A DNA stretch of 64,000 bases from Isosphaeraceae bacterium EP7 (GTDB lineage: Bacteria; Planctomycetota; Planctomycetia; Isosphaerales; Isosphaeraceae), in NCBI GenBank assembly GCA_038400315.1, contig CP151667.1, positions 5,839,174 to 5,903,173 on the forward strand, written 5' to 3'. The notes below the pieces were generated by a model. The model was not told the DNA's origin and did no database searches. It worked only from the letters and a program-made list of their open reading frames with translations. The position numbers were made by a program, and so were the translations under genes. This document shows, in pieces, positions 5,942 to 59,874 of the stretch (the stretch's first letter is position 1; each line of letters begins with the position of its first letter).

Positions 5942-12418
<6,477 letters not shown>

Positions 12419-12451
12419 CCAACCCAGGGATGACCCGAGTCCGCAACCAAG

Positions 12452-12495
12452 AACGCGACGCCAACGCCCCGTGGTCGGGGCGTTGGCGTCGCGTT
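12452..12495 (+). terminator. Perfect 19-bp hairpin after uvrA
   Basis: The left arm 12452-12470 and right arm 12477-12495 are exactly complementary, with a six-base loop (GTGGTC). It lies 33 bases after the uvrA stop. There is no real T-run after it, only TTGGCC, so it may act as an RNA-end stabiliser or as a terminator that does not depend on a U-tract. Confidence 0.7.
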
Positions 12496-12698
12496 TGGCC
12501 GTTGGATGCCCAGCCCGAACCGGGACGAGGCCAAACTGCATCCACGCATTGACAAAATCGGGAAATCGTCAAGAAATCAGGGAGAAAATCCGGAGTTCGA
12601 ACGATGGTTTTCTATGAAGGATTGTCATTCGAGGGATGTGGGCGAAAACCCTCCTGCTTTTACGCCCAGGATTTGGTCCGAACCGCGAAAACAAAGAT

Positions 12699-12910
12699 GA
12701 CGAAACGAACCCGGGAACACCTCTTCGCCCCAGACGCAGTCATGGTCCGACTCGAGATTTCCCGAGACAAAACGAACCCAAGCTCCCCTGGAAAACCCCG
12801 GTCAGGCCCCGGCCGATGAGCCTGCGTCACCTACAAGGCAGTCACTCGCTCGCTCTTTGACAATCCTGTGAACCCGGCCCCATCGGCCTCCCACGACGAA
12901 ACGAACCCGA
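12699..12910. repeat. Cluster of three GAC(G/A)AAACGAACCC motifs
   Basis: GACGAAACGAACCCG is at 12699-12713 and again at 12895-12909; a one-base variant, GACAAAACGAACCCA, is at 12766-12780. The first two lie behind a shared TGGTCCGA element (about 12675 and 12743), so the unit looks like a degenerate repeat of roughly 70 bases. A fourth copy is at 52095-52109. All copies are outside genes. The function is unknown. Confidence 0.6.
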
Positions 12911-13162
12911 GGGCCGACGACCGGGCCGGGCCGTCGCCGCGAGGGTTGCCGACGATGGGTGGCAGCGATACCATTCGAACTGGCTTCTATCGCGACTCGT
13001 AGAACAGGGACACGTGGCCGGCGAGATGCCGCCGCCCTGACCCTCTTCGTCTCGCGGTGGACCTTGCCCCCGCCTACCGCAGTACCTCCCGCCCGTGCCA
13101 GCGTCGAATCAAGCCTCGCGCCCCCCAAGCGTGCCGGCGGCCAGGCCGTCCGAGGGTCTAAG

Positions 13163-16100
13163 ATGATGCGCCGACTGACCGACTTGCCAGCCTGCCCATC
13201 TCGCCGAACAAACCCAATGGCCCCGATGCTGGCCGCCGCCTTGATCTGTCTGGCGCAGTCGGTCTGGGCCGATGTCCCGGCACCTAAGGTCCAGTACAAC
13301 CGAGACATCCGCCCGATCCTCTCGGAAAACTGCTTCGCTTGCCACGGGCCCGACAAAGGGCATCGCAAGGCGGACTTGAGGCTCGACCTCCGCGACGTGG
13401 CCATCGAGATGGGCGCCATCACCCCCGGTGACGTCGACGCCAGCGAGCTGGTCGCTCGCATCCTCGCCGCGGCCGACGACGAAGCCCTGATGCCGCCGAC
13501 CGAGTCGAACAAAGTCCTCACCTCGGCGCAGAAGGACCTCCTGAAACGCTGGGTCGCCGAGGGGGCCGAGTACCAGCCCCACTGGGCCTATGTGCCGCCC
13601 AAGCGACCGATGCCCCCGGCGGTCGACGCCACGCGCGGGCAGGTCGTCAACCCGATCGACGCGTTCATCCTGGCCGGCCACCCCCTGAAGGCATCGCCCG
13701 AGGCCGACAAGCGGACCTTGCTTCGCCGCCTGAGCCTCGACCTGACCGGCCTGCCGCCGAGCCCCGCCGAGGTGAATGCGTTCCTCGCCGACGAGTCGGC
13801 CGATGCCTATGAGCGGCAGGTCGACCGACTGCTCCGGTCCCCTCACTATGGCGAGCGGATGGCCGTCCCCTGGCTCGACCTCGCCCGGTTCGCCGACACG
13901 GTCGGCTACCACGGCGACCAGAATCAGAACGTGTTCCCCTACCGCGACTACGTCATCAACGCCTTCAACACCAACAAGCCGTTCGACCAGTTCACCACCG
14001 AGCAGCTTGCCGGCGACTTGCTGCCCGACCCGACCCCCGAGCAGCTCACCGCCACCAGCTTCAACCGCCTGAATATGATGACCCGCGAGGGGGGTGCCCA
14101 GGCCAAGGAATACCTCGCCAAGTACGCCGCGGACCGCGTCCGCACAGTCTCGTCCACCTGGATGGGCTCGACCCTGGGTTGCGCCGAGTGCCACGACCAC
14201 AAGTATGACCCGTTCACCGCCCGCGACTTCTACAGCCTGGGCGCCTTCTTCGCCGACGTCCGCCAGTGGGGCGTCTACTCCGACTACGGCTACACCCCGG
14301 TCCCGGAGCTGAAGGGCTTCAACAACGACTTCCCCTTCCCGCCCGAGATCGAGGTCGACAGCCCCTACCTCAAGCGCAGGCAGCAGGGCATCGAACGCGA
14401 GATCGCCAGGGTCGCCGCCGAGGCAACCGCCCCAATCGACGCCGACCGTGCCACCCGGGACGCCTTCGAAGCCTGGCTCGCCCAGGCACGCAACACGTTA
14501 AAGGTCTGGCCCGACGGCTGGATTTCGCCCTCCTCGACGATCCTCCAGCCCAAGCCCGGAGACGCCTCGACCGCCGCCGAACTCGAGGATGGCTCGATCC
14601 TCGTCGCCGGCAAGCCCGCGGGTGGTGGCGGCCTGAAGGTCGAACTCCGCCCCACGCCCGGTCGCGTCTCGGCCCTCCGCGTCGAGCTTCTGCCCGACCC
14701 CGCGAACCTGGGTTATCTCGCCCGCGACAAGGCCGAGTCGATCTCCGTCAGGCTCGAAGTCGGCCTCCTGAAATCGGGCCAACCACAGCCAACCCCGCTC
14801 CCCATCTGGTTCGCCGATGCCGAGATCAAGGCCCCTCGATACAACGGCGGGTCGCCCATCCAGGGCGTCACCGACGTCTGGACTTCCCCCAACACAGTGA
14901 ACGCCCAGGCCCGGTCGGCCGTCTACGTCTTGAGGACTCCCATCCGCCTCGCGGAGGGTGACGCCCTCGTCGTCTTCGCCGCGTCGTCCAACCTCGGCCG
15001 CGTCCGGGTCTCGGTCAGCCCCTTCGGCACCGATCTCCCCCTGACCCCGGTCGTCGATGCCCCCCTGGTCGAAGCCTTGAATGCCGAGCGAGACAAGCGG
15101 ACGGCCGAGCAGACCGCGCGGCTCCGCAAGCTGAGCCTCCTGTCCCACGCCGACGATCCCGACGCCCTCGCCCGGATCCAGGCCCTTCGAAACGAAGCCA
15201 ACGACTGCCGCGACGGCCGGGCCTATATCACGGTCACGAAGGCCTGGGAACCGTCCACGACGAGGGTCCTGCCCCGCGGCAACTGGCAGGACGAGACCGG
15301 GCCCGTCGTCACGCCCGCCGTCCCCGGCTTCCTCGCCATCGGGACGAAGTCGGAAGGGCGGCAGACGAGGCTCGACCTGGCACGCTGGCTGACCTCGCCG
15401 GAGAACCCGCTCACCGCCCGCGTCTTCGTCAACCGCCTCTGGAAGCAGTTCTTCGGCAACGGACTGAGCACGGTCGTCGAGGACCTCGGCTCACAGGGCG
15501 AGGCTCCCACCCACCCCGAGCTGCTCGACTGGCTGGCGGCCGACTTCGTCGAGGGGGGCTGGGACGTCAAGGCGACGGTCAAGCGCATCGTTATGTCCGG
15601 CACCTATCGGCAGGACTCGCGGCCCAGGCCCGAGCTGCGTGAGGCCGACCCCAACAACCGGCTGCTCACCTCGCAGAACCCTCGGCGGCTGGAGGCCGAG
15701 TTCGTCCGCGACAACGCCCTGTCGATCGCAGGCTTGTTGAACCTGGAGCTGGGCGGTCCGAGCGCCCACCCCTACCAGCCGGCCGGCTACTACGCCAACA
15801 TCCAGTTCCCCGACCGCGACTACAAGGCCGAACGGGACGACCGCCAGTATCGAAGGGGCCTCTACTCGCACTGGCAGCGCACCTTCTTGCACCCGATGCT
15901 GGCCAACTTCGACGCCCCCTCGCGCGAGGAATGCAACGCCGCCCGCAACGTGGCCAACACCCCGCAGCAGGCCCTGACCCTGCTGAACGACCCCACCTTC
16001 GTCGAGGCCGCCCGCGCCCTGGCAAGCCGGACCCTGGCCACGCCGGGGGATGACGACGCACGCATCGACGGTCTTCTCCGCCTCGCGCTCGCTCGCCCCG

Positions 16101-52094: not shown

Positions 52095-52110
52095 GACGAA
52101 ACGAACCCGG
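52095..52110 (+). repeat. Fourth copy of the GACGAAACGAACCC motif
   Basis: GACGAAACGAACCCGG lies in the 289-base gap between the small membrane protein and the Rad52-like gene. It matches the copies at 12699 and 12895 over 15 bases, 39 kb away. Confidence 0.6.
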
Positions 52111-59800: not shown

Positions 59801-59874
59801 GGGCGATTAGCTCAGTTGGCTAGAGCACCAGCTCGACACGCTGGGGGTCACAGGTTCGAATCCTGTATCGCCCA
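59801..59874 (+). tRNA. tRNA-Val (anticodon GAC)
   Basis: A full cloverleaf of 74 bases. The acceptor stem is GGGCGAT with ATCGCCC, the D stem GCTC with GAGC, the anticodon stem CCAGC with GCTGG (59828-59832 and 59840-59844), and the T stem ACAGG with CCTGT around TTCGAAT. The discriminator is A, and no CCA is encoded (ATGAA follows). The seven-base loop reads TCGACAC, placing GAC at 59835-59837. The base before the anticodon (position 33) is C instead of the nearly universal T. Confidence 0.9.

Follow-up and report, generated by a model that had tools for sequence, protein, structure and literature searches.

A short intergenic motif of Isosphaeraceae bacterium EP7 may belong to a dispersed family of repeat-array RNAs with a partner protein

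What is a short sequence doing when it stands several times between two genes, and once more, alone, elsewhere? The question is raised by a 64-kb stretch (the window, meaning the whole of the DNA analysed here; contig C1, positions 5839174-5903173) of the 7.2 Mb genome of Isosphaeraceae bacterium EP7. The initial annotation had noticed a motif there, GACGAAACGAACCC, and had left three readings side by side: a site for a regulator, a family of repeats, or the remnant of a small mobile unit. The four copies are real, three of them exact (Table 1), and they have company: at up to two mismatches the window holds ten matches to GACGAAACGAACCC, against 0.80 expected, and none of 100 shuffled sequences reaches ten. 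The explanation that we favour, with as much doubt as belief, is that the motif serves as the repeat in short transcription units of a dispersed family, whose array RNAs would be partnered with a protein.

In the window, the presumed unit lies between a gene ending at 12418 and one starting at about 13216, as placed by our own simple gene caller; its limits follow from these flanking genes and from the geometry of units elsewhere. The third motif copy starts 41 nt after the first base of an element that we take for a boxA. The left neighbour (5942-12418, forward strand) is a single open frame of 2158 amino acids, which, judging from its sequence, resembles two UvrA proteins in tandem. Shortly 3' of its stop stands a perfect inverted repeat (12452-12495, arms of 20 nt separated by 4 nt) with the look of a hairpin, such as a terminator. 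A search of the whole window against Rfam 15 returned a tRNA gene as the only match (59801-59874, forward strand), and a relaxed threshold over 12300-13300 gave only matches far below gathering scores. Likewise, 20 array loci searched against Rfam 15 gave no match at the gathering score.

Table 1. Features of the motif-bearing region and of the distant copy, in window coordinates.
Feature	Position	Strand	Remark
Motif copy 1, GACGAAACGAACCC	12699..12712	+	exact
Motif copy 2, GACAAAACGAACCC	12766..12779	+	one mismatch to GACGAAACGAACCC
Motif copy 3, GACGAAACGAACCC	12895..12908	+	exact
Motif copy 4, GACGAAACGAACCC, single	52095..52108	+	exact; next called gene 133 nt on
TGGTCCGA, local companion, no general part	12674..12681	+	25 nt before motif copy 1
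Second TGGTCCGA, local, no general part	12743..12750	+	23 nt before motif copy 2
boxA TCTTTGACAATCC (GCTCTTTGACAATCC from 12852)	12854..12866	+	13-mer identical to the organism's own rRNA-operon boxA
Presumed repeat unit between two flanking genes	12500..12950	+	inferred from flanking genes and unit geometry elsewhere

Counted over the genome, the motif is well above chance. The exact 14-mer GACGAAACGAACCC is present 38 times and the exact 13-mer ACGAAACGAACCC 89 times (40 forward, 49 reverse), while the same patterns read backwards are absent; allowing one mismatch, ACGAAACGAACCC is found 130 times and its backwards control four times. Nor are the copies spread equally into genes. In a 464-kb sample, made of the window and 20 stretches of 20 kb picked for holding the motif, 43 of the 44 exact 13-mers lie outside the genes marked by our simple codon-usage caller, which assigns 83% of the sampled bases to coding sequence. 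This strong intergenic excess bears out the annotation's idea of a repeat family, which extends to relatives, with at least one exact 13-mer in 24 of 45 Isosphaeraceae genomes. Within the clusters listed for the sample, all copies point the same way. The motif comes in direct arrays with periods such as 19, 25, 33-36, 44-46 or 65 nt, some clusters comprising 9 to 17 copies, and in many loci the spacers differ from one copy to the next. A fortuitous origin, be it through base composition or through tandem duplication of a 13-mer that arose by chance, could account for some matches of a species-wide scan (see below) that are like-spacer tandem copies or simple repeats; but the backwards and permuted controls are near zero and the differing spacers do not fit. 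For the family as a whole this explanation is refuted by the controls, and its probability is negligible.

Several simpler ideas can be discarded. The companion TGGTCCGA, a TGGTCC element, was proposed as a second element shared by two copies. It does precede copies 1 and 2 in the window, but a general role fails: it is found within 60 nt upstream of four of 53 sites, where 1.1 would be expected, and at two loci only. A single peptide-coding origin is disfavoured, since the tandem arrays with a 19-nt period present in the genome have a unit that is not a multiple of three, which argues against one encoded peptide, and copies fall in several frames and on both gene strands. Evenly spaced chromosomal sites are rejected as well: the 65 exact clusters are no more even than random (CV 1.19). 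On the chromosome, about 888 kb (C1:2317000-3204000) are devoid of the exact 13-mer, a gap longer than random placement would predict (P about 0.01).

The placement of arrays relative to genes is polar. The gap to the neighbouring gene is the shorter one on the 3' side of the motif in 16 of 21 intergenic clusters of EP7, 17 of 22 of Pararhizobium and 16 of 17 of genomes G039-G041 (Wilcoxon P of 0.0005, 0.007 and 0.0008, respectively); further clusters lie inside genes, one in EP7, one in Pararhizobium and three in G039-G041. A shorter 3' gap is what is expected of a unit carrying its array at its 3' end. The fourth lineage behaves differently: in G450, 11 of 17 clusters are in genes (seven sense, four antisense) and only two of the other six show the shorter 3' gap. 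These observations bear on whether the motif is an ordinary transcription-factor site controlling neighbouring genes. Intergenic position, a conserved core and the many loci would suit such a site; however, at 11 of the 21 intergenic clusters of EP7 the 3' neighbour ends there instead of starting, clusters can reach 17 copies, and the motif also stands inside the tails of protein genes (see below). We therefore find this explanation highly improbable. The regulator site of the annotation, taken in its simple form, is not the best reading of same-strand arrays that have 3' placement in three of four lineages and are associated with a boxA, a promoter pattern and the tails of protein genes.

One of these associations is that with boxA. 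In rRNA operons boxA is the signal for antitermination via NusB and S10. The sequence TCTTTGRCAATYC, noticed at the window boxA, at other arrays and 3' of EP7 genes of the protein family described below, is present as 38 perfect sites in the genome, and its backwards control gives none. Thirty of these sites were examined: eight belong to rRNA operons, 15 follow genes of the family, five are at arrays and two are at neither. The eight correspond to the leader and the 16S-23S spacer of four operons, two of them confirmed by cmscan and two by identical sequence, and it is for its presence in these leaders and spacers that TCTTTGRCAATYC is taken as the boxA of EP7. One such operon, with boxA in both places, lies just left of the window (C1:5833587-5835671). 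After family genes, the element stands 23-47 nt past the gene end in 13 of 15 cases, and at 204 and 233 nt in the other two. When the 22 sites outside rRNA operons are considered over -450 to +600, the motif is found on the same strand in 20, four of which are the loci where the element was first seen, and on the other strand in none of the 30 sites. In the 464-kb sample, each of the four sites matching CTTTGRCAAT stands either within a motif cluster or upstream of one. That the motif goes with boxA in the EP7 genome is thus well supported. The association has its limits: only four of the 26 clusters of the sample have a boxA, leaving 22 that have none, and the order varies, the element coming after the motif in protein genes and mostly before it in arrays. 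A looser pattern places four of five sites upstream of clusters in the stretches of G039-G041 and finds none close to arrays in the remaining groups that were tested, other Isosphaeraceae among them; a search with the strict pattern gave no site up to 400 nt from arrays outside Isosphaeraceae, and none in the loci of G025, G013, G014, G016, G021 and G007, which belong to that family. At one EP7 locus (L301, C1:412408 region), 16 copies of AGAACGAAGCCA in a strict 25-nt period come after a boxA and are themselves followed by CGAAACGAACCC.

A signal of a different kind appears in the genus Pararhizobium, where many arrays lie downstream of a GAACN7GAAC element that is separated by 25-28 nt from a TGCTA on its 3' side. 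This promoter pattern has 68 matches in three genomes, against one for its control. Among 30 matches that were read, 29 lead into an array or into the protein gene: 24 have a repeat on the same strand within 450 nt downstream, four precede a family gene, the repeats of which lie at +682/+726 or, in one case, at +683/+727, and one opens a two-gene operon that ends in repeats; the last looks like a chance match. PMC3091678 gives GAACN7GAAC as an alphaproteobacterial LexA site. Hence the array promoters of Pararhizobium contain what may be a LexA operator, a matter of sequence likeness only, and a comparison of dyad counts upstream of 31 EP7 clusters found no shared promoter element there.

How far does the motif extend? 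In other Isosphaeraceae, arrays are built around the same core with spacings of about 65, 87, 27, 34, 44 and 46 nt. When 84,980 species, each represented by a single genome, were scanned for two copies 6-36 nt apart, 46 stretches were returned, where arithmetic that ignores tandem duplication predicts 0.06 by chance. Several of these stretches consist of simple repeats or of tandem copies whose spacers are alike, including those of Ferrovibrio, Sinomonas and Lacticaseibacillus (examples are L084, L093, L101 and L103). Stretches with differing spacers come from Planctomycetota, Acidobacteriota, Gammaproteobacteria (Ca. Thiosymbion, a Chromatiaceae MAG and another MAG), Alphaproteobacteria (Geminicoccaceae, Pararhizobium) and Actinomycetota (Marmoricola). 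The pattern CGAAACRAASCCA has a match in 23 of 25 genomes searched, the highest counts being 251 in Pararhizobium ih9, 180 and 74 in two Planctomycetota MAGs and 73 in a Bryobacterales MAG, with backwards controls of 11, 0, 0 and 0. Over the 25 genomes the control is 0 in 17, 1-4 in seven and 11 in the genome with 251 copies; the three genomes examined of the genus Pararhizobium have 251, 173 and 135 copies, with controls of 11, 6 and 7. A related 13-mer, AAACRAACCCAAT, matches in 68 of 392 genomes across Planctomycetota, but reaches five copies in only three, EP7 (11), G186 (32) and G431 (5), so that the motif is patchy or varies in dialect. Copy number differs strongly even among relatives. 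A Pararhizobium locus (L179, G448:C1:1676524 region) carries twelve 19-nt tandem motif units, with the period of the EP7 tandem arrays.

The protein emerged at arrays that had been found by DNA pattern. Genes of one family, multi-copy and all-helical in its product, with an N-terminus reading NRxNAxxSTGPRTxEGKxxSxxNAxxHGL or similar, have arrays in their tail or immediately behind them in Marmoricola, Pararhizobium, an Isosphaeraceae MAG and a Bryobacteraceae MAG. A profile of the N-terminal region has matches in 34 of 45 Isosphaeraceae genomes, with 37 in EP7, and in 21 of 25 genomes chosen mostly for their arrays; the genus Pararhizobium is low in copies, with 4-6 matches. It yielded 60 distinct genes, six of which, the profile seeds, had been found through the motif and were left out. 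The motif, at up to one mismatch, is present either in the coding tail or no more than 300 nt past the stop in 26 of the 54 that remain (32 of 60 with the seeds), while 20 permuted patterns hit between none and four of the same genes each. By source, the carriers are 11 of 29 genes from Isosphaeraceae and 15 of 25 from the genomes mostly picked for arrays; the copies are 33 sense and six antisense, the latter orientation being seen in the family genes L119, L211, L229, L246 and L196. In the other 28 genes, several of which are cut by contig or locus ends, the motif is absent at this tolerance of one mismatch. The backwards control, at five of 54 (seven of 60 with seeds), stands above the permuted patterns, which we ascribe to the near mirror symmetry of the motif. 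As this control is poor for 12-mers here (it also gave 24 matches in another test), permuted patterns were used. In EP7, five of six family copies examined have the core AACGAASCC in their gene region and the sixth has CGGGACGAACCCA; no family gene was found in the window or in the 20 EP7 stretches picked for the motif.

Protein and motif also travel together. In Isosphaeraceae, all nine genomes with at least four exact motifs have at least five protein matches, as do eight of the 36 with fewer motifs (Spearman 0.34 between the counts); among 24 other genomes, the protein is present in all 17 with more than four motifs and in three of the seven with fewer. These cut-offs were set after the counts had been seen, and the genomes are not independent. 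The eight Isosphaeraceae genomes that are rich in the protein and have fewer than four exact motifs may possess dialects of the motif. Taken together, there is good support for an association of the motif with this family of proteins. As for the protein itself, AlphaFold models are all-helical for an EP7 copy (mean pLDDT 85.9, pTM 0.66) and for another member (76.2, 0.54). The EP7 model had no match at E 0.001 in PDB or among viral models. Sequence searches of 23 members gave nothing convincing in Pfam (best E 0.0037, an unrelated family; two ORFs were searched as well) or in PHROGs ('terminase small subunit' in three of 23, best E 0.0088); sequences of solved structures also gave nothing convincing (best E 0.0052, ClpC), and two ORFs, one of them a family copy, had no convincing NCBIfam match.

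What does the protein do with the motif? It might recognize double-stranded DNA, for chromosome organisation or site-directed spread, transcription of the arrays being incidental. The co-occurrence of protein and motif is compatible with this, as are the antisense copies in several protein genes and the directional direct repeats, which would suit a DNA-binding protein with a logic akin to that of RAYT and REP. Yet boxA is an RNA signal, and it keeps to the strand of the motif; the order of promoter and array in Pararhizobium, the 3' polarity in three lineages, the chromosomal spacing in EP7, no more even than random, and the lack of a DNA-enzyme family among Pfam matches all speak against a DNA site, which we consider unlikely, though the strongest of the rivals. 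By contrast, boxA, promoter order and polarity point to RNA as the working form of the arrays. The antisense motifs in family genes, the differing order of boxA and motif, and the many clusters that have no boxA count against RNA.

A selfish origin must be weighed too. The protein gene with its repeats could be an autonomous mobile element and the orphan arrays its non-autonomous derivatives, spreading within genomes and between phyla. The annotation's suggestion of a small mobile unit finds an echo here, in the patchy, multi-copy presence over several phyla and the very unequal copy numbers among relatives; the promoter pattern is common to orphan arrays and protein genes in Pararhizobium. 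In one Isosphaeraceae genome (G025), six arrays with a period of about 65 (L031-L036) occupy one end of a larger dispersed repeat, several hundred bases long and with copies about 79-90% alike; two of these arrays are at contig ends. Against mobility, similarity between EP7 loci, among the matches listed, is mostly confined to 18-42 nt around the motif, and clusters occupy matching places in two congeneric species (G039, G041). Between these, identity is 199/208 in the motif and 1249/1462 in the flanks, somewhat higher in the motif, but the comparison took only loci with copies in both species, which makes this a weak test of conservation; in one pair the motif is kept in an otherwise diverged stretch. 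Pfam and PHROGs give no convincing transposase, recombinase or nuclease family, and the fold search of the EP7 model adds none. The double motif matches no stretch of a viral contig collection, on which ground a phage origin is rejected. Finally, the protein was matched in just two of 72,556 plasmid records (of Picosynechococcus and of Planctomyces sp. SH-PL62, with the relative annotated 'hypothetical protein' in both), in which near-copies of the motif are weak. We regard a mobile element as distinctly improbable; the annotation's remnant of a small mobile unit keeps some probability from the patchy, multi-copy distribution.

We thus return to short transcription units with a protein partner. 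The arrays would be transcribed as untranslated RNAs bearing several CGAAACRAASCC motifs, and the boxA, through NusB/S10 antitermination, would keep RNA polymerase on them. The family protein, or another factor acting together with it, may bind the motif in the array RNAs and in the protein's own mRNA; the dispersed arrays would then offer the protein a pool of sites to bind, in the manner of a decoy or a scaffold. Reading further from sequence patterns, we tentatively propose, with slightly less belief than doubt, an undescribed RNA-protein system: dozens of small genes, marked by boxA or promoter, would make untranslated CGAAACRAASCC-array RNAs for a helical protein, multi-copy and in many cases encoded by a transcript that itself contains the motif, and this in Planctomycetota, Acidobacteriota, Alpha- and Gammaproteobacteria at least, and in one actinobacterial genome. 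The accessible parts of the open PMC literature yielded no description of the motif or its peptide traces, of the protein signature, or of repeats of this kind. Such a system would tie together three unexplained observations, a multi-copy family of 'hypothetical proteins' (37 matches in EP7), short dispersed repeats of several phyla, and boxA outside rRNA operons. It also illustrates how one may be led from a faint motif, seen in a single window, to a system of genome-wide extent.

The proposed system would work most like those that combine repeat arrays with a cognate protein: REP/RAYT, CRISPR arrays with boxA, and CsrB-like decoys. Those defining features of REP/RAYT and of CRISPR that were tested are absent. 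REP/RAYT couples high-copy extragenic repeats to a gene joined to them, repeat abundance following presence of the gene, as PMC2817692 describes. Copy number, the repeats joined to the gene itself and the tracking of abundance are the points of likeness with REP/BIME-RAYT. However, REP palindromes stand inverted on either side of their gene and REP/BIME arrays alternate, whereas the motif is non-palindromic, direct and on one strand per cluster; RAYT is a Y1/HUH transposase, of which there is no Pfam match among 23 family members, and boxA and promoter signals are present here. CRISPR repeats are about 23-47 nt long, with spacers of uniform length; by contrast, the core here has 12-20 nt, periods are irregular from 19 upward, each genome has dozens of small arrays, and the partner is a helical protein belonging to no Pfam family. 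Type III toxin-antitoxin systems of the ToxIN type have RNA repeats adjoining a gene for a ToxN-like RNase, whereas the partner protein has no ToxN-like Pfam match. DNA uptake sequences reach about a thousand copies or more, within and between genes, a far cry from 89 exact 13-mers, 43 of 44 sampled outside genes. CsrB and RsmZ are untranslated decoy RNAs with many CsrA-binding motifs, and the logic proposed here, an untranslated RNA with many protein-binding motifs, would resemble theirs, with CGAAACRAASCC in place of GGA, many loci in place of few, and no CsrA among Pfam matches. The array promoters of Pararhizobium resemble the alphaproteobacterial LexA operator in sequence, and the EP7 arrays showed no shared upstream element. 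The boxA matches a known element: the 13-mer of the repeat units is identical to that of the organism's own rRNA operons, the 30 sites examined being divided between eight in rRNA and 22 elsewhere, and it is found here beside short repeat units and on the 3' side of a protein gene.
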